Positions 44,642 through 63,200 of a DNA stretch of 64,000 bases are shown here, piece by piece. A program made the translations under genes and the position numbers. The notes under the pieces are model-generated. The model had not been told where the DNA came from, did not search any database, and saw only the letters and a program-made list of their open reading frames with translations. The stretch comes from Nostoc carneum NIES-2107 (lineage in GTDB: Bacteria; Cyanobacteriota; Cyanobacteriia; Cyanobacteriales; Nostocaceae). The stretch is from NCBI GenBank assembly GCA_002368155.1, contig AP018180.1, forward strand, positions 7,930,561 through 7,994,560, read 5' to 3'. Each line of letters starts with the position of its first letter. The stretch's first letter is position 1.

Positions 44642-44850
44642 ATCGGGAAAGGCAGAAGGCAGGAGGCAGGAGGCAGAAGGGAATTCTGACTCGTGTCCTC
44701 TGCCCGTGACCGTACCCCTGCGGGGAAGCAAGCTACGCGCAGCGTCTCTGAAAGAGAAGATTTAGTGGTCTACCATTATTGGAGGGTCTGAATCCCCCAC
44801 TAGTTGATTCTGACGGATGTATGCTGACGGATGTATTCTTCTTCAATTAA
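44642..44850. repeat. Interspersed repeat cluster
   Basis: Contains GGCAGGAGGCAGGAGGCAGA tandem units, the CAAGCTACGCGCAGCGTCTC element, and a MITE-family segment with TCTGAATCCCCCACTAGTTG and ACGGATGTATTCTTCTTCAA. The last is shared with about 36900-36990. Confidence 0.6.
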
Positions 44851-45065
44851 AAGTCCTCATTATTGATAAGAATAGAACTAGATTCAGGCATATTAACATC
44901 AAGCCATTCTTGAAATTCTTCTTCAGATTGTTCTGAGGATTTTTCCTCTTCCATCTTTAAACCAGCTAGTGCTGCTACATCATCAGGATGAATTATATCT
45001 TCTGTTAGTAAATCACTAACTGTATCAAATTGATGAGATGAAGCAAAAACTTCTGTTTGACTCAT
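44847..45065 (-). CDS. Small acidic hypothetical protein, 72 residues
   Basis: An acidic protein (MSQTEVFASSHQFDTVSDLLTEDIIHPDDVAALAG...) with a Glu/Ser-rich middle. No recognised motif. It is the only minus-strand gene in this stretch. Confidence 0.4.
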   Translation of the reverse strand: MSQTEVFASSHQFDTVSDLLTEDIIHPDDVAALAGLKMEEEKSSEQSEEEFQEWLDVNMPESSSILINNEDF

Positions 45066-45375: not shown

Positions 45376-47892
45376 GTGGCAATTATCCTAGAACACTTCT
45401 GCACCAAAACTGGAAAACCTATTATCGTTAATGACAAGCCGATTGTGGAGACGATAAAACACTGTCTAGCAGAGTATTTTGCGCCTAATGCTACCTTTAA
45501 GTTAGGAACAGTTTACCCAACTTTAACGACAGAACAAGACCTACAACAGTTTACAGAACAGGGACTAAAACTAGAATTCGCTGCTGATGACCGCTTTTAC
45601 TTTATGGATGAACCTTTGCGGGAAAAAATATTTGACCAACCGCATTTTGGTGCTGCCTACGGTAGTAATATGTTTACTCCGTGCCAAAGCTTTAAAGAAT
45701 TTAAAAATCTCCGCGTTCTAGTGGTCGATGCCAGCACAGGGGAAAATGGTGAAATTCTTTCACCGGATAAAGCAATTAAGCTTGTTGGTGATGGTGACGG
45801 CAAAATTGATGTTCGCTTGCACGAAGAATTAGGTAATGCAGCTCAAACACCATTTCAAACCAGATTTGGCATCAAAGAACGCCGTCTGGGATTAGATGAT
45901 GATACTAAACCTGTTAATCAAACATGGCAGTTGGGTAAAGGTACATTTGCACCTCGTGACTTATCTACAGTGGGAAACGGGTATGACCTAGTGATTTCTT
46001 GTGATCAACTCAAAGGTCGAAAAAATGTAGAAAGTATCTTGGGTCTTCTTGATACAAACGGGAAGCCTGTGAAAGTGGGCAACGAAATTAAAGCTGGTGA
46101 GTACACAATGACAATAGGCATTGGTAATAAAACCGATGCATACTACGGGATAACCTCTACAGGCGCTCAATTCTGGAATTCATTTCCTAGTGGTGTACAA
46201 GGTGATGTGCTTCCTCGTCTTGAAAAACGCTTAGAAGAACTCAAAGATATGGCGCATGACCCTAGAAGAATCGCGCAAGACTACATCAGTTCAATAGATT
46301 CTAAATTTAAACATCTAATTAAAACTGAAACTGTACAGAAAGGCAGTTGGATAGATTTCACCAATTTAAATTTAGGCGAATTAGAAACACTGATTGATAA
46401 GGCTTTCGCCAATAGCGACCAAGATATTATGTACCGCATTCTCAAAGCAGATTTAGAGGGATATTGCCAGGTATTAGAACTACCAAAAATTATAGAAAAA
46501 CTCCAAGAGCATTGGCGTAAGCAGTATATGGATTGTGCCAGTGGGCGATTTATCAAATTTGATTCCGCAATGGCACAAACATCTCATGACTTAGCTGACA
46601 ATGAAGTATGCTACCCAAAATTTCCAGATGGAGAAGAAGTAATTGTTTATCGCAGCCCGACAGCAAATAGTAATACTGTTAACGTTTTTATTAATAGACA
46701 TCTAATAGATGAGCCTTTAGATGAGGGTACTATTAAGATGTCTCCAAAAGCATTGAAGCTCTCACTTAGCGATTGTGATGGCGATCGCATGGCGGTTACT
46801 TTGGCATCTGATTTTCCTAATACCACAACGGAAATTAAACATAAACAGCTTGAAGAAAACCGTTATGCGGAAATCATAAAGCTTGCAAAAAAGCCTTATG
46901 AAGGTAGTTTTGAGCAAATTGCCCTTCAAGCAATGGAAAATAAAGTAGGGTTAATTGCCAATCTTTGTATGAAAGGTATTGCACTAGAAAATGAGTGTAT
47001 TTGTATACCACAAGAATCAGCCTTTAAACTCATACAAGATATTAGTATTGATGCAAATAAAATACTTGCATTTGAGAACAATTATAATAAATCTGTCAAA
47101 TATCCAGATAACCTTAGAAAGCAAATTCTAGAACTGTCTAAGTTAGGACAGATAGACGATAGACTACCCAGTAATATCAGCCAATACAATACTTTAGAAG
47201 ATTATAATTGCTCCCGCAGTCAAAGGAACTTATCACATTTATCCAAAGAAGATATAGATATTTATTTAAAGAAAGCCCATGTATTTTACCATGATGTAGT
47301 TGGGATTTTGGGAGGGCAATTACAAATTGAAGTTGATAGAGGTAAAAGTGCAAATCGTTCAGATTCAGAAATTATCAATGCTTGTAAGATGATTGTCATG
47401 AATCCGGATCTAGCACCTTGGGTAGAAGAAAGGAAAATAGAGGAAGTTTTCGCCAGTAGACCAATGAGGCGCAAAGGGCATAGCGCTATCGATATGATGG
47501 TGGATATGACAAACGCAGCATTTACAGAAAGTGCGCTGATTGCTCGTTCTACACAGCAGTTTCAAGATTTATTTAAAGGAGTTGAATTCACACAACAACA
47601 TAAAGCTCAAGCTGTTGAAATTAAAAACACCTATGATCATCTAATTAATCGAGCAATAGAAATCAGCCGTGAAGTAGCAGAATCATCAGCCCCAAGAATT
47701 TTTGCTACAAGCCACTCAGGGAATAGATTAGAAATAATTGGTTTGGCTGAATATAAACACCCAAATGCTTTTGATAACAATCATAAACTGGATATTAAAA
47801 TTGTTGGGAATAATTCACCAAATAAAAAAACTCAAAATCAATGGATAGCAATTGCTACTGTATTAACCTCAGATGGCAAAGTAGAATTAAAA
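45376..47892 (+). pseudogene. RNA-polymerase-like (DPBB, DxDGD) protein, 5' part of an interrupted gene
   Basis: The first 839 residues of a protein of about 1433, read from a GTG. Residues 421-473 are the key: VIVYRSPT (423-430), then GTIKMSPKALKLSLSDCDGDRMAVTL with Asp466, Asp468 and Asp470. This matches the order RxP...(35 residues)...DxDGDxMAV of RNA polymerase beta-prime (NADFDGDQMAV) and of YonO/QDE-1-type single-chain polymerases. Earlier blocks TPFQTRFGIK (158-167), LGKGTFAP (186-193) and CDQLKGRK (209-216) may be the first, Lys-bearing barrel. The frame runs into the IS element at 47893, adding 12 foreign residues and a stop. Enzyme activity is inference. Confidence 0.55.
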
Positions 47893-47982
47893 CTGTACGT
47901 TCGCTTATTTTTGAAGTGTGAGAGGAATTAACGCCTTACTGTTAAAGGAAACAATACGATTTTGGATCTCCTAAAACCATCA

Positions 47983-48170
47983 CCGTGTAATACTTGGGAA
48001 AAGGAGAACGAGCTTTACCATGTATTACATGGTAAAAGAAATTGCGACTTTGCGTGTATTACAGGGATGAAAGAAATATATTGAGAGACTGTTACCGGAA
48101 GTTAAGCTCTTCAGTGTAATACATGGAAGAGTAGCAATATTCAAAGTTCAATTTACGGTGTCTTACACGG
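47983..48170. repeat. Left-arm array of CCRTGTAWTACAYGG palindromes
   Basis: Copies at 47983-47997, 48018-48032 (extended perfect palindrome 48014-48036), 48052-48066, 48112-48126 and 48156-48170. They lie between the left inverted repeat and the transposase gene, outside any CDS. Probably binding sites for an element-encoded protein. Confidence 0.8.
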
Positions 48171-48248
48171 AAATTGCTAATATTGAAATGGGACTTCAAT
48201 TGTGTGTATCCTCCTTCAGGAGTGGTACAGGTAATTGAGTAAGATGAA

Positions 48249-49955
48249 TTATGTCGAGCGCACCACTGAATCTATCTGATAAAGGGATTCAGGCATTTTC
48301 ATTAAAGAAAGAATTTGTTTTTGAAGCGCGTTAATTGGTGTGATGAAGATGGTAGAATCAGGTAAAAAATAAAGAGTTAAATTACAAAAAGCCTTGAGCA
48401 TTTGTTCAGCAGATGGGCGAGCAGTTTTTCGCTTTGGATTACCGTCATAAAGACCTGCCAAAGATTGTTGGGTTTGCTCAAGAGCCAGCCGTACTACAAA
48501 CTCCATTAGAGTAAATACACGCAAAGCTATGTTCAACAGGAACATTAAGCCAGTGATTCGGTCAGTATTTTGAAAGTAAATGGGTAGGGCTGGCAAAGAA
48601 CCCCTTTTAAAACGGTGAAAACCTCGCTCTAAAAGCCATTCATCCCGATAATACATCACAGCAAGTGGTAAACTCATCTGGCTACTATCGGCATTAGTAA
48701 CATACAATCGCCACCCTGCCAAAGTTTCTGCCTCCTGAATTGCAGTATCTATCTTCTGGATATGAAGTTGAAGACAAATATCTGTCAATTCCTCTGTGGT
48801 CGAGTTTTTTGATGGTCGTCCCCGTCCGAGATGACGAGTTTTTTTAGTGATCTGTTCTGTAATCATGGTTGAGAAAAAATTTTTGACACGATAGCGCTGG
48901 AGAATGTTTTCTACTTTATGGGTGAGTAGCTCCCGATCTGAGCCTGGCTTGTTAGCTAAACTTTGGAGAGCGGTTTCAGCAGTCAAGATGCGTTGCTGTT
49001 GTCCACGTATCATTGATGCGGCAAGGCTTTGGGAGTAAACTACTAAGTAGCGTTCTAGCCAACGCACCCATTTGTTGGTTTGTTTGTTGAACCAAAACTT
49101 ACCTAACTCCACTTCAAAACCTTTTCCCACCGCAGGTTCTTCTTCATCTTGTCGTGGTAAACGAATGGGCACAATTTCCGCTGGTGGGTTGAGAACCCAT
49201 TGCTGAAGATATTGAGGGTGTTGCCCACTCATGGCTACAGGAACGCAGTAAATACCCCTAGAAGCGGCGATTTGAGCGCGAGTTGCAATCGACCCAGCTT
49301 TACAATCAGCGATGAAGACAAACTTTTTATGTCCAATCACTTGTGCTATTTTTTGCCAAGTGGGGAAATATAATGGGTCGTCAGCTCCATTACCTTCAAG
49401 GGTTGTGCTGACTAATGGCATTCCCATTGGGTCAAGGGTTGCCAATAATTGACGGTATTGCAACAAATCTGGGCGTTTGTCCTTGGAATAGCCATAACGT
49501 AATATATTTTCTTCTGGAGAATCTCCCTGTTGATGATTCACGCTAAAACTAGTCGTATCGGTTCGTGCCACTTGTGTGGGCAATTCGTAGGCGCGAATCA
49601 GATTTTGTCCTAACTTGACCTCTATTTCCTGCGTTGCTTGTGTTTGCTTACCTAACTCTTCGACTACCCTTGCCAATCTGTCATCACTGGTATCTTTTTC
49701 TCCTATCGACCACCCTGTACTTAACTCTAAAATCCTTCGATGTGCCTTTACCCATGATTCCACTGCACACAACCGATGGTCTGATTGAGTAATTATGTAT
49801 GTCAGTAACAATACACTCAATTGACCATAACTCATGCCTTTGTGGTTTCCGTGTGGTTTTTTGAGTTTTTGGTCAATACATTTAGCTATCCCCATCTGAA
49901 CAAGCCATTCCACGATGACGGGAATATCGTCAATCCGCTCAGAACTTATGTCCAC
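48249..49955 (-). CDS. IS1634-type DDE transposase
   Basis: A complete 568-residue transposase. Catalytic Asp133 in ARTDTTSFSV, Asp217 in FVFIADCKAG, and the Glu of ERGFHRFKRGSLPALPIYFQ (YREK-like region) follow the IS4/IS1634 superfamily pattern, as do the N-terminal DDRLARVVEEL block and the long insertion between Asp and Glu. The start is an ATG at 49955 with AAAACAGTGG in front. No frameshift. It should act on the TIRs of the 2727 bp element; a TTAAAA 6 bp duplication fits the 5-6 bp habit of the family. Confidence 0.88.
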   Translation of the reverse strand: MDISSERIDDIPVIVEWLVQMGIAKCIDQKLKKPHGNHKGMSYGQLSVLLLTYIITQSDHRLCAVESWVKAHRRILELSTGWSIGEKDTSDDRLARVVEELGKQTQATQEIEVKLGQNLIRAYELPTQVARTDTTSFSVNHQQGDSPEENILRYGYSKDKRPDLLQYRQLLATLDPMGMPLVSTTLEGNGADDPLYFPTWQKIAQVIGHKKFVFIADCKAGSIATRAQIAASRGIYCVPVAMSGQHPQYLQQWVLNPPAEIVPIRLPRQDEEEPAVGKGFEVELGKFWFNKQTNKWVRWLERYLVVYSQSLAASMIRGQQQRILTAETALQSLANKPGSDRELLTHKVENILQRYRVKNFFSTMITEQITKKTRHLGRGRPSKNSTTEELTDICLQLHIQKIDTAIQEAETLAGWRLYVTNADSSQMSLPLAVMYYRDEWLLERGFHRFKRGSLPALPIYFQNTDRITGLMFLLNIALRVFTLMEFVVRLALEQTQQSLAGLYDGNPKRKTARPSAEQMLKAFCNLTLYFLPDSTIFITPINALQKQILSLMKMPESLYQIDSVVRST

Positions 49956-49991
49956 TGTTTTCCCCGCTTACTGATACAAAACAGCGAATTC

Positions 49992-50378
49992 CTACTGTTG
50001 TGTATACTCGCTATTTAGTACCACAATAAAATGATTGAGGGCTTTGAGTGCTGCTTTGTAGCCCGGTGATTGCTTACCTAACTTCAACTCCAATATTACT
50101 TGGTTACGTAAACTTTCGAGTGTTGCCACCTTTAGAGGCATGGTCGCAACTTCAACAACACTAGTTTTGGCTTTATGTGCCAACTTTTTTTCCCGTGTAA
50201 TACTTGGATGAGCATTCCTTCTAATCACCTGTTCAACGTAATCAGCTCTAGTCATACCCAAGCATTCGGCAGCGATCCCCAAAGCCTTCCAGGTTTCATC
50301 CGTTAATCTTAAAGAGCGCACTTGACGATAATCATCGTCTTTGAGGGCGAACTTCCCTTGAATATCCCGCTTTAACAT
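49992..50378 (-). CDS. Passenger DNA-binding protein, ribbon-helix-helix-like
   Basis: I choose the ATG at 50378 (GAGGCGA in front); other starts lie a few codons upstream. The 128-residue basic protein has DDDYRQVRSLRLTDETWKALGIAAECLGMTRADYVEQVIRR, the beta-strand plus two-helix pattern of MetJ/Arc-type ribbon-helix-helix proteins. A copy of the 15 bp palindrome lies at 50388-50402 directly before it, another at 50193-50207 within the gene. It probably binds these sites, regulating itself and perhaps transposition. IS1634 elements do not usually carry such a gene. Confidence 0.65.
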   Translation of the reverse strand: MLKRDIQGKFALKDDDYRQVRSLRLTDETWKALGIAAECLGMTRADYVEQVIRRNAHPSITREKKLAHKAKTSVVEVATMPLKVATLESLRNQVILELKLGKQSPGYKAALKALNHFIVVLNSEYTQQ

Positions 50379-50387
50379 TCGCCTCAT

Positions 50388-50529
50388 CCGTGTATTACAT
50401 CGTAAGTTTAACCCCAAATTAGTGAAGTTTAAAGTGTAATATTCAGTATTACAGATGAGATGTTAATGAGCCATAGCTTCCATGTAATACATGGAAAGGG
50501 CTTTTTTCCTTTTTCCATGTATTACACGG
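50388..50529. repeat. Right-arm array of CCRTGTAWTACAYGG palindromes
   Basis: Copies at 50388-50402, 50480-50494 (extended palindrome 50478-50496) and 50515-50529 (the inverted-repeat partner of 47983-47997), plus two joined half-like sites near 50433-50453. An additional copy, 50193-50207, lies inside the small gene. Confidence 0.8.
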
Positions 50530-50619
50530 TGATGCTTTTAGGATATCCAAAATCGTATTGTTTCCTTTAACAGTAAGGCATTAATTCCTCTCACCCTTTA
50601 AAAATGAGCGAACGTACAG

Positions 50620-52410
50620 TTAAAAGACGGCAAGCCAAAATATCAAAGCTTAGGTTATATTTCTGCCGAAACTGTCAAAAAATATCCTGAAAATATTAAA
50701 CATGGGGCAGAATTCAAAGACCTAACAAAAGAAGTTGTACCAGGACTTACTCAAAGACATGTTCAAGCAGCTTTTAGGCAAGTAAGAGAATTTGCCACCA
50801 TTACTAGAGAAAATATTCCCGACTCTCAAAAAGAAGCTATTGCAGCTGCTATGTGGCAGCTTTCAACTACAAGTAAAGAAGATGCTGAACGCGGGTTTAA
50901 AAAGACATCCGCTATCTTTGCTATGTTTGGTGATGAGTTAGTAGGATGCTTGAACAAATTACAGTTTACCGAATTTGCAGTGGTAGGAGTTCACAAAGCT
51001 TGTAATGAGCATTTAGGGCGAAAGTGGCTAGGAGAGAAAGTAGAATGTCATATCGAACAAGCACCTGACCCTGCTAATCCAATACAGAATAAACGTTGGT
51101 TGGTGGCTGAAGGTAAAAAATTAGGTGTATTCCGCAGTGAGTCAGCCCAACTACCCATTGGCACTTCTTTTAAAGCAGAAATTATCTCGCCACCGAGTGC
51201 ATCTATCATCATTACAAGTACCAAAGGCAATCAGCTCAAGGTAGGACAGTTAAAAAAGTATGCCTTCCCAAATCAAGAATGGCATGGGGAAGAAGGCGTA
51301 GTCACAATTAGTTTGTCTGGAAGCGGTAAAGCTTTGACTCCTATTGCTTTGGTTAGCGATCAGCCTTTGGGGGTAATTGATAAAGAATCCTTTAGCGTTT
51401 TAAGTGAAAAGTTAATAGCTCATGGGAGAAAAATTCAAGGATTTCAATTTCATGCAACCCTAGAATCAGCACCAGCAACAATTGCTAATATTAAATTAGA
51501 ACCTGAATCAATTCAATATCCTAAAGTGTGGGTAACAGAACAGCCATTAGTCAAAGAAACAAAACTCAGCTACTTAGAAGAACTAAATACGCTCCTCAAA
51601 CAAAAGTATCAAAATAAAAATAATCAAGGTCTACTGCACGATGATGAAGCATATTTGGGAGCAGTACGACTCAATGATGAATACTTTAAAGTTTTTATGC
51701 AACAGAGAGGTCAAAATTCAGAATCAATTAAAGCGATCGCAGATGAAATTGAGCGGCAGTTAGGGGGAGAAAGTTTTATTGGAGTTGCCCAAAAAGGTAA
51801 TATTGAAGAAATTTACTTTTGTATCACTATCCCAACTGAGCGATCGCAAGAGCAAACAGCAGCCAAAATCACTGATACTTTCAAGTTTCTCCTGGAATAC
51901 GACCAGCTGGAAAATGGACAAAGGACAAAATTTATTGCCATCCCTGTAGATGAATTACAAGAGATAATTTCACAAACCCATAAGCTAACTGCCACCTCCT
52001 CAAACCTTTCTCAAAAGTTAAACAACCAAGAAATAAACCTAAAACTACCTAATACTGACCAACAAGATTTAAAGAAGGCTCATGCAGAAGATGTCTCTAC
52101 ACCACAAGCTGTACAACGCGAAGATTGGGAAAAGCTCATGCTCAAAGATGCCATGTTGAGCTTGAAAGCTAATCCAGCCAATACTGGAGAAGAAATTCAA
52201 ACTGCAACATTTGCACAGAACAAATACCGGGTAGTTTACTACTCTCCTTTAGAAACCTTGCGAATTGTAGATGAGGTGGGTCATCGAGGGACATTGTACA
52301 AGGCACAAAAGGGTCAATCTGCCCAAGTTTGTCAGTTTAGTGAAGATGAAAAGAAAAGTTTTCAACAAGAATCTCAACAATATCACTGTAGAGACTTGCA
52401 GCAGGAATAA
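50620..52410 (+). pseudogene. RNA-polymerase-like gene, 3' part after the IS element
   Basis: After one TTAAAA copy, GACGGCAAGCCAAAATATCA continues the interrupted gene in frame (DGKPKYQSLGYISAET...) to the stop at 52410, adding 594 residues. Independent translation could begin at the ATG at 50851. This part has beta-rich blocks (VECHIEQAP, FKAEIISPPSASIIITSTKG, YFKVFMQQRG) and a polar, Gln-rich tail; no domain recognised. The residue count after precise removal of the element is 839 plus 594. The last block (AQNKYRVVYYSPLETLRIVDEV) looks like a small separate domain. Confidence 0.65.
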
Positions 52411-52420
52411 ATTTCGCTGA

Positions 52421-53275
52421 TTACAATTCCACCAAACCACGACGTAAAGCACTGACTGCTGCTTGGGTACGGTCATCAGCACATAATTTGTTGAGAACAT
52501 TACGGACATGGCTTTTCACAGTTCCAACCGTGATGTAAAGTTTGGTGGCGATCGCTGCGTTATTGTAACCTTCTACAATTAGCTGTAAAACCTCTGATTC
52601 TCTTTCTGTAAGAGTGAACAGATCAATCATTTCATCATCTTCAATATTACTGGAGTTTTTGGTAGCCAGTTTTTGAGTCTTGAATGATGCTTTATCTAAA
52701 ACGAATGGAGTTTTTTGCGCCTGTTCTAATACAATACGTGCAATTGTGGGGTCTATCCATGTATTGCCATGATAAGTCACACGAATAGCTTCCAATAGGC
52801 TATCAAATTTGATATCTTTCATACAGTAGGAGTCAGCCCCAGCCGCAAACGCAGCTAACACAGCTTCTTTTTGATCACATAAAGTTAAAATTAATACTCT
52901 AACTTTTATGCTTTTTTTGCGAGCAATTAATTTTATCTCTCTTGTGAGTTCAATACCATCTTTGTCTGGTAAAAAAATATCTACAATTACAATATCAGGT
53001 TGTAAGTTATGTAATAGTTGTAGCCCAAGAGTAGCATTAGCTGCTTCCCCTATAACTTCAATGTTTTCATGTTGCATGAGTGCAGTCCGAATCCCAATAC
53101 GAGTTAATTCGTGGTCTTCAATTACAACTGTGCGAATTTTAGTAATGGGTTCTAAACTAATTTCTGGCTCGTTTATTAGTGAACTAAGTTCTAATTCTGT
53201 CTCTGGATTACTTGGAGGTAAATAATCATGCTGTTGGGTATTCAATTTGATATCTGTCATTAAATCTTGGTTCAT
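52421..53275 (-). CDS. NarL/LuxR-type response regulator
   Basis: A 284-residue regulator, last gene of the partition operon. A polar N-terminal extension (1-45) is followed by a receiver domain (about 46-165) with Glu53-Asp54, the phosphoacceptor Asp99 in IVIVDIFLPDKDG, and the Lys in SYCMKDIK. The C-terminal LuxR-type HTH (about 218-284) reads LTERESEVLQLIVEGYNNAAIATKLYITVGTVKSHVRNVLNKL. It binds DNA as a phosphorylation-controlled activator. No histidine kinase is in the window, and such a regulator inside a plasmid partition operon is unusual. Confidence 0.88.
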   Translation of the reverse strand: MNQDLMTDIKLNTQQHDYLPPSNPETELELSSLINEPEISLEPITKIRTVVIEDHELTRIGIRTALMQHENIEVIGEAANATLGLQLLHNLQPDIVIVDIFLPDKDGIELTREIKLIARKKSIKVRVLILTLCDQKEAVLAAFAAGADSYCMKDIKFDSLLEAIRVTYHGNTWIDPTIARIVLEQAQKTPFVLDKASFKTQKLATKNSSNIEDDEMIDLFTLTERESEVLQLIVEGYNNAAIATKLYITVGTVKSHVRNVLNKLCADDRTQAAVSALRRGLVEL

Positions 53276-53295: not shown

Positions 53296-53961
53296 TTAAG
53301 GCTTTTTAACTCGTAACAAACAATAATTAGATACTTGATTATGTCCTTTTTCCTTATTAGTTAATAACCTTTGAGCAGATACTTTAGTACAACTGAGATT
53401 AGTCAAACTTTCCGAATTCCAATTTACAATTTCGCGTGCGAGTTTGCCTTCATAACTTTTCGACCAGCGCAAAGTCTCTACCTCTGCAACAGTTAATAAC
53501 CTGGGCTTCAAAGGTGCATATCCACCAGCCAACCACACAGGAACAGATAATCCTGTCAAAACACCAAACCCGATGGCAGCTATTAATAACCCTATAGCTG
53601 GTAACATTATCCTTAAACGACTACGCTCTTTTGATTCGCAATGGTCAATTAGTTTATCTACCATCCTACGGATTTCCACTTCTTGACCACTAATAGCCGT
53701 GCGTTTCGCCTTTTCCAAGTGGTCGTAAATTGCTTCAGACCACCGTTGAAATAAGCGTTCTAACTCGTTTGGTTTATCCTCTAGCAATACTTGGAGTTGG
53801 CCAGTTGCTAGCATGACAAGAAATAGGGGGTCGCTTGTAGAAAGTCCATGTTCTACAGCTATTGCTAAGACCCTTCTTTGAAAATCTGCATCTTTACCTT
53901 CAAGTAAACGAGTTAAAAAACTTTCGGTTTTAGCTTGTCGCAAACTACGCACCATAATCAA
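53296..53961 (-). CDS. Single-pass membrane protein in partition operon
   Basis: A 221-residue protein overlapping the upstream gene by 17 bases. The N-terminal half is helical and polar (RQAKTESFLTRLLEGKDADFQRRVLAIAVEHGLSTSDPLFLVMLATGQLQVLLE, partly shown); one membrane segment (about 118-142: IMLPAIGLLIAAIGFGVLTGLSVPVW). The C-terminus is polar. No family recognised. Its arrangement suggests a membrane anchor working with the neighbouring unknown protein. Confidence 0.55.
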   Translation of the reverse strand: MIMVRSLRQAKTESFLTRLLEGKDADFQRRVLAIAVEHGLSTSDPLFLVMLATGQLQVLLEDKPNELERLFQRWSEAIYDHLEKAKRTAISGQEVEIRRMVDKLIDHCESKERSRLRIMLPAIGLLIAAIGFGVLTGLSVPVWLAGGYAPLKPRLLTVAEVETLRWSKSYEGKLAREIVNWNSESLTNLSCTKVSAQRLLTNKEKGHNQVSNYCLLRVKKP

Positions 53962-54943
53962 TCCCTTTTGATTCGTGAATTATGGCATCTTCGTTTTGTA
54001 AAGCCATTATTTCAAGTTGTTTTGGTCGAGTATTTTCAATATATGTAGATGCTTTTATATTCTGTATTTGTAAGATTTGGGAAAAATTTAATGCATCCGC
54101 TTCTTTGAGTTCATCTATTATATCAGCTTCTAAAGTAGCACTGAGAATCGTATGTTCATCTTCTGATGAACGCAATATAAAATAATTTTCTGCAAAATTA
54201 ACTGTAACTATCCCAAAGGGTAATATAACAAACTCATTGGTATCTTTTTCTGCACAGTTTTCCAAAATTGTATCGATTAAAAGATTTTGAATTGCTAATA
54301 ATTCACTTTTTTGGAGCTTTATTTCTAATTCAGTCTGCGCTGAAACTATTGCACTAACGACAGGCTCCTCTTCTTCAATAGATAGAGTTTTGCTATTTGG
54401 GAAACTCGTTTCTCCTGTTTCTTGTAATGAAAGCAACTCTTCTGCAGAAGAACTAAATACCAACTGTCTCAATTGCTGTAAATTAGTTGCACTGATATTT
54501 AATTCTATTAAACTCTTAGCATCATAATTTTCTACCGGGCTATCCGAAGAATTTTTATCTTCATCAAAGATTTCGCTATTACGTGAAATTAACTGTGAAG
54601 ATTGAAATACTGCTTGATTACGTAATTGGCAGAATTCTTCCACATATTCTGGGCTAAAAACCCGATCAAGAATTTCGCTCTGGGTATTATAGGCTAAACT
54701 AGGTGACAAAGTTTTATAGGGTGATAAAGACCAATCTCCATCAGTATTAATGTGACCGCTTATTAGAAAACCTCCTAAATTGTGGGCAAGAAACCATTCT
54801 TTCTCAATTCCTAACTTGAGTAGTACAGGATCTTCTGTAGCTAGGATATATAACCTGCCCATATATTGCTCACCACCATTTGTTGTAACATCACAGTTAA
54901 AAGCGGCTTCGGTAGAATATAAAGCGTGAAATTCGTATGACAT
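53945..54943 (-). CDS. Hypothetical protein in partition operon
   Basis: A 332-residue, acidic, soluble-looking protein. The N-terminal 100 residues (FHALYSTEAAFNCDVTTNGGEQYMGRLYILATEDPVLLKLGIEKEWF) read like a folded beta-rich domain; the middle is Ser/Glu-rich and probably disordered; the C-terminal part is mixed. It starts four bases after the stop of the ParA-like gene and overlaps the membrane-protein gene, so it is translationally coupled. Not recognised. Confidence 0.5.
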   Translation of the reverse strand: MSYEFHALYSTEAAFNCDVTTNGGEQYMGRLYILATEDPVLLKLGIEKEWFLAHNLGGFLISGHINTDGDWSLSPYKTLSPSLAYNTQSEILDRVFSPEYVEEFCQLRNQAVFQSSQLISRNSEIFDEDKNSSDSPVENYDAKSLIELNISATNLQQLRQLVFSSSAEELLSLQETGETSFPNSKTLSIEEEEPVVSAIVSAQTELEIKLQKSELLAIQNLLIDTILENCAEKDTNEFVILPFGIVTVNFAENYFILRSSEDEHTILSATLEADIIDELKEADALNFSQILQIQNIKASTYIENTRPKQLEIMALQNEDAIIHESKGIDYGA

Positions 54944-54947
54944 AACA

Positions 54948-55700
54948 TCAACCTTTTACGCTAGATTCATTTTTAGTTAAATCTTTCTTCTGCGGTTGTG
55001 TATCCTTGTCCCATAGTTGAGTATTCTCAATTGCAAGGTGTGAATCTTCTAAAAAAGTAGACAGTCGCTGCTGAGACATAATCGGCATTTTTTCCTCAAT
55101 CTCATTCGCATCGAATCGAAATTTATTTAGGTCAATAAAATACCTATCTCCTGGATAAAGTAAAGGAAAATCTATGATAAAAATTGTGTTTTTGTATTTT
55201 TTATTAACATTTTGGTAAGTTTCGTCATCCTCCAAAAAACTCCAATCATCTGTTTTACCAAAATTCCTCACCAAGATATGTAGCATTTTATCTTTGTGCA
55301 AATTAATGGATTGGTAAAACAAATCGATAGATTCAAAGCCCCCATCACAAACAAACCATTTACAGATATCTACGCCATATTTTGGAGCAACCTCAAGTAA
55401 GCGTCCCTTTTTAATCCAGTTGTTTACTAGAGGAAATACATTGGCTGGAAGGTTAACAATAACTGGTTTATTTCTCGCCAGTTCAAAGATAATATCAGCC
55501 CTATTTCCCTTATTGACAGCTTCGCTAAATTCAGCATCAACTGCATAATGATAGAAGCGTTTGACATCTTGGTTAGTCATATCTGCATCTACCAAGGCAT
55601 GTTCTAATTTTTTATCAATCGCATACTGCACCATGACGCGAGCAAACAGCGACTTGCCAACCCCTCCCTTCTCACCATCAATTAAATGTATTCTTGCCAT
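54948..55700 (-). CDS. ParA/MinD-type ATPase
   Basis: A 250-residue deviant-Walker ATPase: IHLIDGEKGGVGKSLFARVMVQ with the signature Lys before GGVGKS, ALVDADMTNQDV as switch I and a FIIDFPLLYPGD region. The residues differ from ordinary plasmid ParA proteins, so it may position a plasmid complex or control its partner protein. It sits 12 bases downstream of the small gene after ParM, so two different segregation-type NTPases share one operon. Confidence 0.8.
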   Translation of the reverse strand: MARIHLIDGEKGGVGKSLFARVMVQYAIDKKLEHALVDADMTNQDVKRFYHYAVDAEFSEAVNKGNRADIIFELARNKPVIVNLPANVFPLVNNWIKKGRLLEVAPKYGVDICKWFVCDGGFESIDLFYQSINLHKDKMLHILVRNFGKTDDWSFLEDDETYQNVNKKYKNTIFIIDFPLLYPGDRYFIDLNKFRFDANEIEEKMPIMSQQRLSTFLEDSHLAIENTQLWDKDTQPQKKDLTKNESSVKG

Positions 55701-55712
55701 AAAAAACTACAT

Positions 55713-56150
55713 CTAGGGTGAAAAACTGGTGCTATCTGTGGTTATGCCGGCTAGATTCCAGTCTTTGAAGTCAAAATCATTCAAGTCTTCATCTTTAACT
55801 GCGAATTTACTTTGATTAGTGGTGGAAGATAATGGGATTTGGAATACACCGCACAACACGTCACTTACACGAACTGGGTCAATCTCAAGTACTGCACACA
55901 TATACTTCAGATGATTTGCGATCGCACTGACTGAATCCAAAAGTATTAATTCTAAAGTTTCGCGAGAGCAACTGCCTTCACCATATAGTGCCAGTGGCAG
56001 ATAATAAGCGTTTAAAGCAGTGACGATCATCGCCGTCTTATCTTGCGATGGGTGCAACTCTCGGTTCTGGATGTAAGCAAGCATTTTCGCCTTGTCTGAG
56101 TTTAGAGGTGGTTGGTATCGCCATTTAAAGTCTTTTTTTCGCTCATCCAT
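55713..56150 (-). CDS. Small ParM partner (ParR-like), putative
   Basis: A 145-residue protein overlapping the end of the ParM-like gene by eight bases. The N-terminal part (KWRYQPPLNSDKAKMLAYIQNRELHPSQDKTAMIVTALNAYYLPLALYG) looks like a ribbon-helix-helix fold of the kind found in ParR-type centromere-binding proteins; the rest is acidic. Position directly after parM is also that of parR. The assignment is based on position and fold-like appearance only. Confidence 0.6.
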   Translation of the reverse strand: MDERKKDFKWRYQPPLNSDKAKMLAYIQNRELHPSQDKTAMIVTALNAYYLPLALYGEGSCSRETLELILLDSVSAIANHLKYMCAVLEIDPVRVSDVLCGVFQIPLSSTTNQSKFAVKDEDLNDFDFKDWNLAGITTDSTSFSP

Positions 56151-57288
56151 TGGAAGTGACTGCCTCTACAACGGACGACTTTATACCTGCTTTGACTTTC
56201 ATGCCGTGGTAAACAGACAACGCCCAGACATCAGCAAGACGACTACCGAGCCATTGCTCATTTAAAGTTGGCGGAATATCTACACTTCCATGCCATACTA
56301 CAGGCGTTGTGGGAAACACTGCATCCAGTTCCAAGCGCAGATAATCAGCTGTACCGCCACAGATAATTACCTCATCTAACTCGTTTTTGGCTGGTAATAC
56401 TTCTTTTAACCAAGTGGTGAGGCTAATGGCATACTCTGCTCTTGAAGATTGTACGGCAAGTATAATTTTCTCAATTTGAGCAGTTCTAATTGAGTTGTCG
56501 CAACCACCACAAAGAGAATAAAAATGGCTTTGTTTTGGTTCGCTATCGGCAGCAACAATTGCTGTGATTAGCTGTTCCACCTCCAGTCCTGATGTACGTT
56601 CCATGACCAAATCAACCATTTTAGCCATGCCCAAGTTCGCAGTTTTGCCGCGATTCAAGATGCCACGTCGGGATATCAATACAGAAGCGTTACGAAACCC
56701 AAGCATAACCAGAGCAACTACTTTACGTCGAATTGCCTCACCCGTATTTTTGCAGTACATGGCATAAATTCCACCACCTTCTGGAAAGCACTCGTAACTT
56801 ACCAAGTTGGCGTTTAATTTCCCTGTTGGCGTATCAAATTCAGCGAGAGCATCCTTGAGCATTGGTTTTAATAACGCCGAATCTTCAAATTCTCCTGGTG
56901 GTAAAAGTAGTGCTAACGAAATATGGAAGGAGTTAGGTAACTTAAATGTCAGCTTTGCCACCCACACAGCAGCAAGTGTTTTATACACAGCTAATTCGTA
57001 CTTTCGTGGTTTTAGTGTCGGTGTAGCGCTATATGTACTTCGTGCTAAGTAGCCTACAGCTCGATAATCTTCACCTATTCCTACCCAAGCTGCATTCTGT
57101 GGGTAAGCATTGCCCAAATTACGAGTTTTTTCTGCAAGGGAAAGACGAGTAGCTTCAATGACAGCCGGTTCCATCCAAAATGCTGTTGCTTTCCCACCTT
57201 GAATCTGTAAAATTCCCTTGGTACCGCTTCCGCCAAAGTCGAGTGTTAATGTAACTTCTGGAAAAGCTTCTTTGGTTAATCTGCCCAT
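56143..57288 (-). CDS. parM: ParM/StbA-type actin-like segregation ATPase
   Basis: A 381-residue actin-like protein. The first phosphate-binding loop is LTLDFGGSGTKGIL, and the adenosine motif is LDEVIICGGTADYLR; the middle VVALVMLGFRNASVLISRRG fits the second phosphate loop. ParM proteins form filaments that push plasmid copies apart. It is first in an operon with a ParR-like partner, a ParA-like ATPase and others. A cluster of TTCCTAC repeats lies upstream (57366-57468) and could be the centromere. Start ATG with preceding CGCATATG context. Confidence 0.85.
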   Translation of the reverse strand: MGRLTKEAFPEVTLTLDFGGSGTKGILQIQGGKATAFWMEPAVIEATRLSLAEKTRNLGNAYPQNAAWVGIGEDYRAVGYLARSTYSATPTLKPRKYELAVYKTLAAVWVAKLTFKLPNSFHISLALLLPPGEFEDSALLKPMLKDALAEFDTPTGKLNANLVSYECFPEGGGIYAMYCKNTGEAIRRKVVALVMLGFRNASVLISRRGILNRGKTANLGMAKMVDLVMERTSGLEVEQLITAIVAADSEPKQSHFYSLCGGCDNSIRTAQIEKIILAVQSSRAEYAISLTTWLKEVLPAKNELDEVIICGGTADYLRLELDAVFPTTPVVWHGSVDIPPTLNEQWLGSRLADVWALSVYHGMKVKAGIKSSVVEAVTSNG

Positions 57289-57578: not shown

Positions 57579-58046
57579 TCACTCTGCTTCGTCTTGGGTG
57601 ATTTCCAATTCTGCAATTAAGTCATCCAAGCTATCTGGAAATGTCCCCCGTGTTACCATTTTGGTAAACACTTGATAACAATCATTCTTCGCTCCTTCTT
57701 TACGAGGAAATCCCAACCATAAAATTACAATCGCCTTTAACTCTGGAGTCTCAAATGCTCGAAAAAATAGGCGATATCTTTCTGGTAAACCCATTTTCTT
57801 GACTCGTCCATAACGCTTTAAAGCCCCAGTTAAAGCAAAGTAGCTGGCGAAAGGAGCGGCGGGGATTTTGGTTTCAATTGCAACAGTAATGGCGGCAAAT
57901 AACTTCACCGTTGCATGGGTTTTAAACTCGCTTGACGGTAACTTTTTTTGTAAATCAGAAACACGCTCAAATAGTTCTTGATACTGAGTGGAAAATAGTT
58001 GCGGATGAAAATAAATCTCCCAACCATGACTGATAAACTTAGCCAT
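57579..58046 (-). CDS. yhaV: YhaV-type toxin (RNase) of a type II toxin-antitoxin pair
   Basis: A 155-residue RelE-superfamily mRNA-cleaving toxin. Typical YhaV blocks: GWEIYFHPQLFSTQYQELFERV, KTHATVKLFAAITVAI, KRYGRVKKMGLPERYRLFFRAFETPELKAIVILWLGFPRKEGAKNDCYQVFTKM (partly shown). Its start overlaps the antitoxin gene by eight bases. Loss of the plasmid would free this long-lived toxin and kill the cell, so it acts as a maintenance module next to the partition genes. Confidence 0.88.
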   Translation of the reverse strand: MAKFISHGWEIYFHPQLFSTQYQELFERVSDLQKKLPSSEFKTHATVKLFAAITVAIETKIPAAPFASYFALTGALKRYGRVKKMGLPERYRLFFRAFETPELKAIVILWLGFPRKEGAKNDCYQVFTKMVTRGTFPDSLDDLIAELEITQDEAE

Positions 58047-58889: not shown

Positions 58890-61800
58890 ATGCTAAGAAA
58901 CTCTAACTTAAGTCAATCTGTATTAGATAATGCACTGATTTTGGTAGAAATTTTGCTGAAAATATCAACACAGCAGCAATCAGACAATTTACTATTAAAA
59001 CCTACAACTTATGTTTATTGGAAATCAACAAATGAACTGCGAGTTACAGGATGGACACAGAATAGAAAAACATACGACGAAAAAGGTACAAAACTGGAAT
59101 ACTTACTTCAGCTAATTGAAGATGAGGGCAAAAAATTAACACCTCACAAAAAAAGAGATGGCTCTGATGGTAAACCAAAAGAAGCACTTCAAATTGCTCT
59201 GGATTTTTTGTTTCGTTTAGGTGTGCGGAAAGAGCCTCCGAAATCTCCAGGCTTTAATCACGGCTGGTGGAAATTCACATTGATTCTAGAAAATCAGACA
59301 AAAACAACCGAAGAAAATCTTCAGGTAATTAAGCAGAAATGGAATGAATACTTAAAAACTACAAAACCAAACAAAAAACAAAATCAAAAAACAATAGCCA
59401 ACCCTAATACTAGAGATTCATTTCAATACCCCGAGCAAAATTCAACCTCAAATAAAATAAATGAAGATAATTTTCTACCAGAAGGATTTGAAACTCTAAA
59501 AAAGATTTTTTTAGCCAAAGAAGGTAAGAGAAGTGAAGGGCGACTATTAAAAATAGCAGAAGCGAATTGGTCTTTAATTATTAATAAAAACTATATTGAG
59601 CGAGATAATCAACAACAATGGTTGCAAATAGCTAAAGACTTAGCTGAATTTGAAGGAATTTCCCTTTTGTTAATTAAAGGTAATCCGGGTGCAGGAAAAA
59701 CTGCTGTAATGTACTGGTTAGCTCATCAATTATTTGAAGAGGATCATCTCATTATTGTTCCTACCAATAAAAGGAATGAAGTAGACTCTGGTTGGTTAGA
59801 ACAATTATATAAATTTTCTGACAGACATCAAGAAAAACATTTTTATATAATTGTTGATGATATATTTCGGAATTCTTCTATACTCGAAGACTTAAAACAA
59901 GTAGAATATAAGTTTCCTTTAACATTGATTGCAACCACTCGTATCAACGAAAATCAAGAAAATTATTTTGGTAAATCTGGTGATTTACGGATAGAAACAG
60001 TTGATATAGGTAAACCAAGTGAGCGAGAAAAAGACCGTATCATAGAGAAAATTCGTGAAGATAAAAATGGTGCAGAACGACTCAGCAAAATAGAAGAAAC
60101 AAAGTTACAAGAGCTTCGACAGCATGATGTTGAAATGCTAGTATTTATGTTGGAATTGTCAGAAGGTAAAGGATTTGATCAAATTATCGCAGATGTTATC
60201 CAACAATTAAATAATGTAAATCAAACTGTATATAAAGTTTATGAAGTGATATGTACTTTTGGACAGTATAATATCCATTTAGCTGAAGAAATAATAGCTT
60301 TATTATTACCAAATACTTCTATTGTTGATGTTAATACAATAGTTCAAGGGACTGAAAATTCATATTTAAGCGGACTGATAAACCGATTTTTTACTAGATA
60401 TGAATATTATGCATTTATAACAATTCATGAATTAATTGCCTATCACACTATCCAGTCAGCCTATAGTCAAAGAAATCCATTTTATAATCCTACCAGTATT
60501 GAAAATTATTTAAAAATCTCATTACAAAATTTCAATATAAACTATACAAGCCATATTCGTTGGATCAGTTATTGCCTAAAAAGCCTAGCAAATCAAAAAG
60601 ATAAAACTCATTTTCTTAAGGACATATTACGTCAATACGAAAAACAGATACAAGATTTACAAGAAGGAGCAACGGTTGCAACATTATATTCATGGTTTGA
60701 GATATATAAGAAATTAGAAATTATTGAAGATCAGAATAAATGTAAAGATAAAATCCTGAATACTTCTCCTAAAAGTGGGCCAGATTGGTTTTATTGGTTA
60801 TCTGTAATTGATAAATTTGGTGATATTCAACAAAAACTTGATGCTGTAATTAAAATAACTCATGTTTTACAACATAATTCAACTTTATTTGAAAAAGGTA
60901 AAGACCAAGGTTGGAGAATTCGGAAAATTCATTTAAAGCTAATTCGAGAAAACAAATTAGTAGAAGAGAAATTATTATCTCAAGACGACTTTCAACAAGT
61001 CATTAAAATGACTGTTAAGTGGTTATCCAGAAAAGATGATTGGCAAGTTCGTAAGTATTACTTACTATTAATTAGTAAAAATGGAAATACCGAACAACAA
61101 CAAGAAGCTATTATTAACACAAATAAATTTCTCAATAATTATCCTAAATACTGGGTTAACAATTCTGTACTTCATCCATATTTAGAGTTGGTTAAACGCA
61201 AAGGATATCAACAGGATAAGCAGGAAGCAATATCTAAAATTTTAGAAGTGTCTAAAGAGAATCATAAGTTTTTTGAAAATTTGTTACAAGCATTCTTGGT
61301 AGGTTTCTTTTTAGCAATTATAAACGATGCAGGAACCCATCAGCAAAAGCAAGAAGTTATTCAAAAAATTGGCTCTGTAGTCAATGATAATCCAGAAATC
61401 TATTCTAAAATATACGATCTTCCTGATTATTTGAATCTTATTTCTAAGGAAAATAACCTTATACAAACACGCAAAGCGATTGATAATTTTCCGAAAAATT
61501 CTGAATTACAATCTGATAGAGAGCGCATCAATAAGGGTTTTAAATTGATTAACATGATATTGAAAAATAATAACGAACAACATACACAGATAGTAATTAA
61601 TTCTTTATCGTCTTGGCTAGATAAAAATTATAAAGAACAAACGTATCCAATTGTTATTCAGAAATATTTATTGTTTCTCAAAAAGAACAAAAATATAGAT
61701 TTATTGCAAAAATATGTTAAGGTAGCAGTGAATTGGGTAAAATCATATCAAAAACCTGAAAACAATAATGATAATGAAAATTTAGCAAGACTATTGATAG

Positions 61801-62078
61801 AGATCGGTGAGACTTATTACGTGCTAAAACGTTGGAACGTTGCTGAAAAATACCACGGAGATAGTTATGATATATCTCAACAAATACCAGATGAGAAAAT
61901 TCGATTAAAGCAAATGTCAGTTGCTCTTTCTAATAGAGCTAAAGTCGTGATTGAGCAAGGAATTAAAAGGTACGGAGATGCTTGTGATTATTTGGAAAAA
62001 AGTACTCAAATAGCTGAACAAATAGGTGATACAAAACAAATTGAAATCAATAATGAAATAATGAATAAAATACGATAA
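58890..62078 (+). CDS. STAND-type NTPase with C-terminal helical repeats (putative defence protein)
   Basis: A 1062-residue protein, AT-rich compared with its neighbours. Residues 1-160 form an N-terminal domain of unknown type; about 160-200 is a polar linker. The NTPase has Walker A GNPGAGKT (264-271), Walker B FYIIVDDI (318-325) and the sensor LIATTR (346-351). A helical region (about 430-600) precedes ARM/TPR-like repeats to the C-terminus, ending in CDYLEKSTQIAEQIGDTKQ. This sensor-NTPase-effector layout is that of Avs and other STAND anti-phage proteins. I infer a defence role. Its stop codon abuts the broken dnaB. Confidence 0.75.
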   Translation: MLRNSNLSQSVLDNALILVEILLKISTQQQSDNLLLKPTTYVYWKSTNELRVTGWTQNRKTYDEKGTKLEYLLQLIEDEGKKLTPHKKRDGSDGKPKEALQIALDFLFRLGVRKEPPKSPGFNHGWWKFTLILENQTKTTEENLQVIKQKWNEYLKTTKPNKKQNQKTIANPNTRDSFQYPEQNSTSNKINEDNFLPEGFETLKKIFLAKEGKRSEGRLLKIAEANWSLIINKNYIERDNQQQWLQIAKDLAEFEGISLLLIKGNPGAGKTAVMYWLAHQLFEEDHLIIVPTNKRNEVDSGWLEQLYKFSDRHQEKHFYIIVDDIFRNSSILEDLKQVEYKFPLTLIATTRINENQENYFGKSGDLRIETVDIGKPSEREKDRIIEKIREDKNGAERLSKIEETKLQELRQHDVEMLVFMLELSEGKGFDQIIADVIQQLNNVNQTVYKVYEVICTFGQYNIHLAEEIIALLLPNTSIVDVNTIVQGTENSYLSGLINRFFTRYEYYAFITIHELIAYHTIQSAYSQRNPFYNPTSIENYLKISLQNFNINYTSHIRWISYCLKSLANQKDKTHFLKDILRQYEKQIQDLQEGATVATLYSWFEIYKKLEIIEDQNKCKDKILNTSPKSGPDWFYWLSVIDKFGDIQQKLDAVIKITHVLQHNSTLFEKGKDQGWRIRKIHLKLIRENKLVEEKLLSQDDFQQVIKMTVKWLSRKDDWQVRKYYLLLISKNGNTEQQQEAIINTNKFLNNYPKYWVNNSVLHPYLELVKRKGYQQDKQEAISKILEVSKENHKFFENLLQAFLVGFFLAIINDAGTHQQKQEVIQKIGSVVNDNPEIYSKIYDLPDYLNLISKENNLIQTRKAIDNFPKNSELQSDRERINKGFKLINMILKNNNEQHTQIVINSLSSWLDKNYKEQTYPIVIQKYLLFLKKNKNIDLLQKYVKVAVNWVKSYQKPENNNDNENLARLLIEIGETYYVLKRWNVAEKYHGDSYDISQQIPDEKIRLKQMSVALSNRAKVVIEQGIKRYGDACDYLEKSTQIAEQIGDTKQIEINNEIMNKIR

Positions 62079-63184
62079 ATTTGAGAAAGTGCCAAAACGG
62101 GAATATCTAAATCTCCCGCCATTTTGTAAAGTTCCCTCGCCACATCTCCCAGTTCATAGCTACGATTTCCCCCGGAGTCTTCTGCCATCATTTGTAGGTA
62201 ATCGATGACTACCAATCCCAACTTTCCTTCTTTTGCCTTCACTTGACGACATTCACAAGCAATTGCAGAAACGCTAATACCTCTTGAATCATTAATGTAC
62301 AAAGGTAGTTCGGAGGCAATATCAACAATTTGGGCAATATTTTTCAACTCCCATTCTTCTAGAGGGTTACTACCAGAGCGGTGTCTGCGAATGCGATCGC
62401 TTCTCAAAGGAACCAAGTTGTAATCTCCATACTCTTGAGTAACGCTAATTAAACTCCACAACCTGTATTCCAACTGCTTTTTAGTCATCTCCAATGAAAA
62501 AATGATGACTGGTAATTGGTAAAGTATGATCATTTGGAGAGTTAAAAACAAGGATATTTGTGACTTTCCAATTGACGGTCGCCCTCCAACAATAGTGAGC
62601 GTTCCAGCTTCCAATCCCACTATCAATTGATCGAGTTCAGTCAGTCCTGTAGGGTAAATTGGTTGAGAGGATTTTAATTCCTCATAGGCTGCAATATTAA
62701 TCATGCTATTGTGTTCGGTATTTGTGGAAAATGCTTGGTTGGTAACTTGAAAAATTCTTTGCTCTGCAAGGTTGAGGATGATTGGTAGCTCAGTTGCTGT
62801 CTCATAACCCAGTTCTACAACCTCGTTACCAGCTTTGATTAACTGCCTTCGTCTATATTTCTCCATCACCAAAGCTGCTAAAGCATCGATATTTACTGCT
62901 GATACAGTGCTGTCTACAAGGCTTACCAATTTATTTTTGCCACCAATACGAGCTAGCAAATTTTGGTCAATCAACCAATTTGTGACGGAAAGTAAATCTG
63001 TAGGTTTGCCTGCGAAGTGAAGGCGAAGCGCGCACTGGTAGATATCTTGATGAGCTTTGATATAATACGCTTGTGGAATTAAGAAATCACTTACCCGATT
63101 AATTGCCACTGGATCAAGCATGATTCCGCCAAGAATAGCCTCTTCTGCCTCTATGCTTTGGGGAGGTAGTTTATCAATTGTCAT
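62079..63184 (-). pseudogene. dnaB: Replicative helicase DnaB, lacking its C-terminal part
   Basis: From the ATG at 63184 (GAGG upstream) the frame encodes DnaB: N-terminal PQSIEAEEAILGGIMLDP, linker, then the RecA-like domain GTLTIVGGRPSIGKSQ (Walker A), VIIFSLEMTKKQLEYRL, LGLVVIDYLQMMAED (Walker B) and DLDIPVLALSQ. Homology stops there; VSRGVEQR... and the rest, about 90 residues with the arginine finger and motif H4, are missing. The frame then continues into unrelated bases to 62006, overlapping the STAND gene's end. It has probably lost helicase activity. It follows the HTH gene 63201-63989. Confidence 0.8.
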
Positions 63185-63200
63185 TTGTGGTTGCCTCACG

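Follow-up and report, generated by a model that had tools for sequence, protein, structure and literature searches.

The gene at positions 45376 to 52410 of a stretch of 64,000 nucleotides from Nostoc carneum NIES-2107 (contig AP018180.1, positions 7,930,561 to 7,994,560; this whole stretch is termed the window below) belongs to a family of large proteins for which the fold of a single-chain two-barrel RNA polymerase is well supported by structural modelling. The family is proposed to make RNA on plasmid DNA, with a role in transfer or priming, a reading to which we give a little more than an even chance. Homology, a polymerase-like predicted fold, invariant residues, a recurrent gene neighbourhood and fusions to RNase H were observed by computation. 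An insertion sequence divides the gene of the window into two pieces, and the following parts were assigned:

45376..47892, forward strand: N-terminal polymerase piece (piece 1), amino acids 1-839, with both putative barrels (open reading frame and fold model)
45937..45939, forward strand: K188 of GKGT, putative first active-site lysine, in the first barrel (62 of 62 alignment rows; analogy with QDE-1 K743)
46012..46014, forward strand: K213 of QLKGRK, putative second active-site lysine (invariant; analogy with QDE-1 K767)
46651..46659, forward strand: RSP (R426 and P428 invariant), opening the conserved region of the second barrel
46771..46785, forward strand: DCDGD, amino acids 466-470, putative metal-binding Asp residues
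47323..47346, forward strand: QIEVDRGK (Q650, D654, and K657 invariant), a motif past the second barrel
50620..52410, forward strand: C-terminal piece of the same gene, of no known family; its frame opens at 50608 inside the insertion sequence

The AlphaFold model of piece 1 is confident (pLDDT 85). Its 31 PDB matches at E<=0.001 all belong to the two-barrel RNA polymerases, either single-chain or multisubunit, with the eukaryotic QDE-1/RDR2 and phage gp64 as the leading matches. In case of RDR2 and QDE-1, the top alignments comprise 477-508 residues across positions 1-725 of the model at an identity of 12-13%. The original prediction had likened the protein to single-chain RNA polymerases such as YonO and QDE-1 and had named a predicted fold without two double-psi beta-barrels as one possible refutation; the predicted fold matches two-barrel polymerases and thus supports this suggestion.

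A lack of conservation of the three Asp residues in homologues had been named as the second possible refutation, but the DxDGD motif was found in all 79 related loci, which were obtained from the best 80 of 196 relatives (see below). As had been stated beforehand, the window protein carries this motif as DCDGD, and the sequence DCDGDRMAV begins 38 residues past P428 of RSP (amino acids 426-428). PFQTRFG, KGTF, and QLKGRK are all present in the window protein as well. Among all stop-to-stop frames of at least 60 amino acids in the window (29,709 residues), D.DGD occurs once. Alignment A4 combines the window with 61 of these 79 loci, excluding 8 two-frame genes, 2 truncated genes, and 8 loci that were not chosen; Q161, R163, K188, K213, R426, P428, D466, D468, D470, Q650, D654, and K657 are invariant in all of its 62 rows. 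Three of the 29 loci of the first search lack DxDGD in their longest frame (378-516 amino acids), and two long proteins were shortened in alignment A1.

The active site of QDE-1 comprises K743 and K767 in the first barrel and catalytic Asp residues at 1007-1011 in the second (PMC1750930). By analogy, K188 and K213 may represent the counterparts of these lysines. Their spacing of 25, compared to 24 in QDE-1, is suggestive, but lysine spacing was dropped as evidence since it varies (25 versus 40). If the polymerase fold had decayed and taken on a role other than catalysis, e.g., nucleic-acid binding, this would agree with the broken copy in the window and with the presence of the gene in two frames at 8 of the 79 loci, which may be due to decay or to sequencing errors. 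Considering that the putative catalytic residues are invariant in relatives down to 28% identity, this explanation is very improbable.

By tblastn with piece 1, relatives were detected in 82 of 72,556 plasmid records, of which the 60 listed are all cyanobacteria by name, and in 31 of 292 genomes of the phylum of the window. None of 50,697 phage records was matched by piece 1, and in total two subfamilies, that of piece 1 included, were searched against these records with no match. Mobility typing of the 82 plasmid records gave 37 conjugative, 16 mobilizable, and 29 non-mobilizable ones. Among the 60 listed matches, 55 are annotated as hypothetical protein, four have no feature, and one is annotated as ribonuclease H. 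The aforementioned 196 relatives originate from a collection of 84,980 species, and the titles of all retained loci name either cyanobacteria as such or one of their genera or families. These loci fall into three subfamilies, for which the labels are our own: S1, the kind of the window, with 21 loci, DCDGD, and 57-73% identity in the best segment; S2 with 28 loci, mostly of about 1,270 amino acids, and DFDGD; and S3 with 30 loci of about 1,570-2,600 amino acids where complete, and D[FY]DGD. Two groups are more distant, namely A2 with five sequences (ADFDGDQLMV in four) and A3 with nine sequences of mostly about 890 amino acids (DTDGD in eight). The 890-amino-acid type was also found on two plasmids of 51.6 and 76.6 kb typed non-mobilizable (L134:1033-3669 and L135:41638-44292), on each of which it is followed by an HU gene.

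No credible sequence match to Pfam, NCBIfam, or PDB was obtained for the window protein itself. It has no match to the RNA-dependent RNA polymerase (RdRP) family PF05183 at the gathering cut-off, and the window gene is not listed for PF00623 even at E<=10. A paralogue of chromosomal beta-prime was rejected as an explanation; with the beta-prime models PF04997 and PF00623, a single gene of the same genome exceeds the cut-off, located at 7.536 Mb of contig C1 and taken as rpoC1. Links to known polymerases become visible through the distant relatives. PF05183 matches four of the five A2 members (best 2.6e-6) and one of the nine A3 members (2.5e-4), and alignment A4 matches A2 with an E-value of 1.9e-55 and A3 with 8.8e-47. 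Across the 292 genomes, PF05183 occurs at seven places, five of them above the cut-off, and all seven overlap places independently found with the window protein; none occurs in 14 control genomes. Two A2 members are matched by PHROG 4291, annotated as RNA-dependent RNA polymerase (5.1e-6 and 7.3e-6), and PHROG 34895, the function of which is not annotated, was detected in an A3 member (5.9e-64) as well as in the window protein (9.9e-7). One IMG/VR contig (L116) encodes a relative of the 890-amino-acid type with 51% identity; together with the A3 match to PHROG 34895, it suggests that some phages probably carry a polymerase of this type. The poor matching of the window protein would also be expected if it was no polymerase at all and DxDGD had arisen by chance in an unrelated protein, but in view of the structure matches, the conserved residues, and the RdRP matches among the relatives, this is extremely improbable.

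In two plasmids, both typed conjugative, the polymerase is fused to an RNase HI domain. In Gloeothece citriformis PCC 7424, plasmid pP742402 encodes a protein of 2,805 amino acids annotated as ribonuclease H (L147:8911-17325), in which the polymerase motif DFDGD is located at 529 and residues 2188-2319 form the RNase HI domain (E 1.5e-20), and Cy782203 of G. verrucosa PCC 7822 encodes a polymerase-RNase HI fusion of 2,448 amino acids (L148:3968-11311). Both fusions retain TDGS, RMEL, SDSQ, and CD motifs, which we presume to carry the catalytic residues of RNase H, and they are the two best matches of the RNase H domain, which was detected in 702 plasmid records; a further 23 of these are listed, each with less than 45% identity. 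An ssb gene is situated upstream of both fusions (1.1 and 2.1 kb). Approximately 3.8 kb downstream on Cy782203, DUF6753, a protein of 373 amino acids matching the TraL-like query, a small gene, and ParM are located, followed by MobC and relaxase genes. As general companions of the polymerase, ssb and RNase H were rejected (0 of 79 loci).

RNase HI cleaves the RNA strand of RNA/DNA hybrids. A DNA template is the likelier one for two reasons: such hybrids are the substrate of RNase H, and some relatives are close to genes whose products act on plasmid DNA, namely those for segregation, relaxase, MobC, and ssb. This bears on the possibility of an RdRP as in RNA interference (RNAi), which would produce double-stranded RNA for plasmid-encoded defence or regulation. 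RDR2 and QDE-1 are the closest solved structures and the sequence match of the relatives is to the RdRP family, but the presence of RNase HI in two members and the absence of any named Argonaute- or Dicer-like gene from the neighbour annotations inspected, most of which say hypothetical, render this explanation improbable. Moreover, QDE-1 also uses DNA (PMC2950127). The original prediction had left the choice between a primase, a dedicated transcription enzyme, and an RNA-dependent polymerase; the gene neighbourhood and the fusions to RNase H speak for RNA synthesis on a DNA template. Its description of the polymerase as stand-alone calls for caution, since many relatives contain further sequence after the polymerase and two possess the RNase H domain.

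Another extra domain was observed in a long-type relative, in which a macro domain (L082:14426-14893, matching a macrodomain protein of solved structure at E 2.8e-7) is followed by a NADAR-like stretch (E 0.18) and by stretches that resemble ASCH and SLOG by eye only. The SLOG-like stretch recurs in locus L037 and has no Pfam match; the names NADAR-like and SLOG-like are our own. A macro/NADAR fusion was rejected as a general explanation, the macro domain being present in 4 of the 79 loci and the best NADAR match in Pfam having an E-value of 0.18.

Neighbouring genes were searched by blastp (E<=1e-4) in flanks of up to 10 kb, often shorter, of the 79 loci. ParM was found in 53, DUF6753 in 38, and a TraL-like ATPase in 37 loci. 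A Mob_Pre relaxase occurs in 31 loci, distributed over S1, S2, and S3 with 0 of 21, 21 of 28, and 10 of 30, respectively, and a MOBP-type relaxase in 14. In S1, the complete order DUF6753-332aa-TraL-145aa-ParM, convergent to the polymerase, was observed in 9 of 21 loci and a partial one in two more; in six loci, a match to a MOBP-type relaxase follows the ParM module. Most of the listed plasmids measure 100-500 kb, and for this reason such closeness is unlikely to be due to chance, as judged without a random-gene control. The same order as in the other S1 loci is found at 53296-57288 of the window, where the surroundings of the polymerase gene are as follows:

44847..45065, reverse strand: small divergent open reading frame upstream, 72 amino acids, conserved next to the polymerase gene in 7 of the 21 close relatives
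52421..53275, reverse strand: response regulator (receiver and LuxR-type helix-turn-helix); 7 of the 21 loci of close relatives contain a relative of it
53296..53961, reverse strand: DUF6753 protein
53945..54943, reverse strand: conserved protein of 332 amino acids, no family; 11 of 21 close-relative loci
54948..55700, reverse strand: ParA/TraL-like P-loop ATPase (TraL model E 2.9e-8, far below its cut-off)
55713..56150, reverse strand: conserved protein of 145 amino acids, no family
56143..57288, reverse strand: ParM/StbA-type actin-like segregation protein (assigned by 41% identity with a protein annotated as ParM; Pfam gave no match at E<=0.01)

By tblastn, no relaxase of the Mob_Pre or MOBP type, the types sought, was found in the window, 20 kb before it, or 40 kb after it. 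A YhaV-type toxin gene (57579-58046, E 1.5e-46) adjoins the ParM end of the module. Further along, 58890-62078 encodes a defence-like protein of 1,062 amino acids with matches to Effector-associated domain 4 and a STAND-type NTPase, the end of which is overlapped on the opposite strand by a DnaB-like helicase gene (62006-63199). An Mrr-type restriction endonuclease gene is located at 31140-32057.

Catalysis, DNA as the template, and a role in transfer or priming are what we infer from these observations. In the proposed mechanism, the three Asp residues of DxDGD in the second barrel would hold metal ions and the other barrel would supply two lysines, probably K188 and K213, so that, as suggested by the predicted fold and the residues, RNA could be synthesised from nucleoside triphosphates by nucleotidyl transfer. 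Plasmid DNA, most likely single-stranded and exposed at transfer or replication, would serve as the template, yielding either a primer or the first transcript. In the two plasmids with fusions, the RNase HI domain of the same chain could strip the RNA from the hybrid. A narrower version, which we put forward as a rather doubtful speculation, assumes an enzyme of conjugation and plasmid maintenance with an RNA-polymerase/RNAi fold that comes in together with the transferred single strand, or works on it, and lays down RNA as a primer or first transcript, which some members would remove with their own RNase H.

A strong rival to the synthesis of primers on single strands is duplex transcription of the YonO kind, by which the enzyme would use promoters of its own to transcribe a set of plasmid genes from double-stranded DNA, with no link to transfer or priming. 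YonO, a single-chain two-barrel enzyme, serves its prophage as an RNA polymerase that strictly depends on DNA (PMC5467207). The relatives on non-mobilizable plasmids and the 890-amino-acid subfamily beside HU fit such an enzyme, while the recurrent segregation, TraL-like, and relaxase genes and the RNase H of two members argue against it. We regard transcription of this kind as a serious possibility, albeit with clearly less than an even chance.

Several observations weigh against RNA synthesis for transfer or priming. The plasmid records typed non-mobilizable make up 29 of the 82 with relatives, and in the two plasmids with the 890-amino-acid type beside HU no relaxase is annotated in the stretches read, which would fit a role in transcription, too. 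The lysines were placed by analogy, and their spacing amounts to 40 in the two RNase H fusions. Foldseek TM-scores do not exceed 0.38 by query length (PDB list) and the root mean square deviation is large over full-length alignments; therefore the structural match rests on the catalytic core. The RNase H fusion was observed in two plasmids only, with no RNase H or ssb relative in the 79 loci, and the neighbour counts derive from often short flanks and lack a random-gene control.

With respect to the window copy itself, the following features were found between its two pieces:

47893..50619, no strand assigned: insertion sequence of 2,727 bp with long terminal inverted repeats (sequence analysis)
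48249..49955, reverse strand: transposase (DUF4277 and DDE_Tnp_1; Pfam)
49992..50417, reverse strand: second open reading frame of the insertion sequence, with a weak TacA1-like match (E 0.039) below the cut-off

The insertion sequence is flanked by a 6-bp direct repeat, TTAAAA, at 47887-47892 and 50620-50625, and its terminal inverted repeats of approximately 140 bp are 89% identical. Including the window copy, 13 full-length copies are shown in the genome at 100% identity, in addition to two of 2,680 bp, and the 13 identical copies indicate that the element probably moved recently. Seven of the 13 are located on contig C4, with two pairs approximately 480 bp apart. Both ends of the element contain repeated palindromes around ATGTAWTACAT, perhaps binding sites. 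Due to the insertion, the open frame of piece 1 (45376-47931, forward strand, GTG start, 851 amino acids) ends with residues encoded by the insertion sequence. The original prediction spoke of a reconstituted protein and was silent on this disruption; we analysed the pieces separately and alongside intact relatives rather than as a single protein of 1,433 residues. It had further termed the gene plasmid-borne, which applies to the family (82 plasmid records), but not to the window copy, since this copy lies in contig C1 of 8,352,649 bp (genome, 9.36 Mb) and is taken as chromosomal for this reason. It is a chromosomal relic, interrupted by the insertion sequence past both barrels, and probably non-working. 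A second relative in the same genome, an uninterrupted frame of 2,589 amino acids on contig C3 (221,468 bp), is adjoined by a relaxase gene and by relatives of ParM and DUF6753.

Compared to QDE-1/RDR2 (PF05183), the family differs by its low identity and the missing PF05183 match of the window protein, by its bacterial and often plasmid-borne occurrence, and by its flanking sequence. It resembles the phage proteins gp64, gp96 (P23-45), and gp66 (phi14:2) as a single chain of matching fold carried by mobile elements, but often has genes for plasmid segregation and mobilisation as its neighbours. YonO of SPbeta is counted among these single-subunit phage kin by description, not by direct comparison. 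Conjugation primases such as RP4 TraC and Sog make RNA on transferred strands and are encoded near transfer genes. Only this proposed role, RNA on transferred single strands, is shared with them; the fold is different, and no primase family of Pfam was matched by the window pieces (E<=10) or by four intact relatives (E<=1).

Whether the family had already been described was left as a question in the original prediction, and in broad outline it had. Single-chain two-barrel enzymes are present in many phages and in fungal linear plasmids, as listed in a review (PMC7281927). YonO-like proteins are mentioned for many Firmicutes and cyanobacteria in PMC5467207, citing Ruprich-Robert and Thuriaux 2010, and non-canonical polymerases of likely mobile elements for some Firmicutes and Cyanobacteria in PMC7598289; the window family probably belongs to the same broad group. 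In the passages covered, both sources name no gene, neighbourhood, fusion, or shown function for the cyanobacterial polymerases. Polyvalent proteins are reported to be scarce in cyanobacteria (PMC5512222). Thus such polymerases on cyanobacterial mobile elements are already known from these texts, whereas the recurrent neighbourhood of ParM, TraL-like ATPase, and DUF6753, often with a relaxase, and the RNase HI fusion with ssb nearby are new. No description of the neighbourhood, the RNase H fusion, or a shown function was found in the literature covered, which does not include key older papers.

Large cyanobacterial plasmids carry many such genes, which are mostly called hypothetical (55 of the 60 listed). 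If they encode plasmid polymerases, the plasmids of a major phylum possess RNA synthesis of their own. The RNase H fusions provide a concrete, testable case for an enzyme that both makes and removes primers, and, if the proposal is true, this would be, to our knowledge, the first conjugation primer-making machine with an RNA-polymerase/RNAi fold. Considering its nearest solved structures, the family may help to place the origin of the RNAi polymerases and, if the reading holds, bacterial plasmids would constitute a reservoir of kin of these eukaryotic enzymes.

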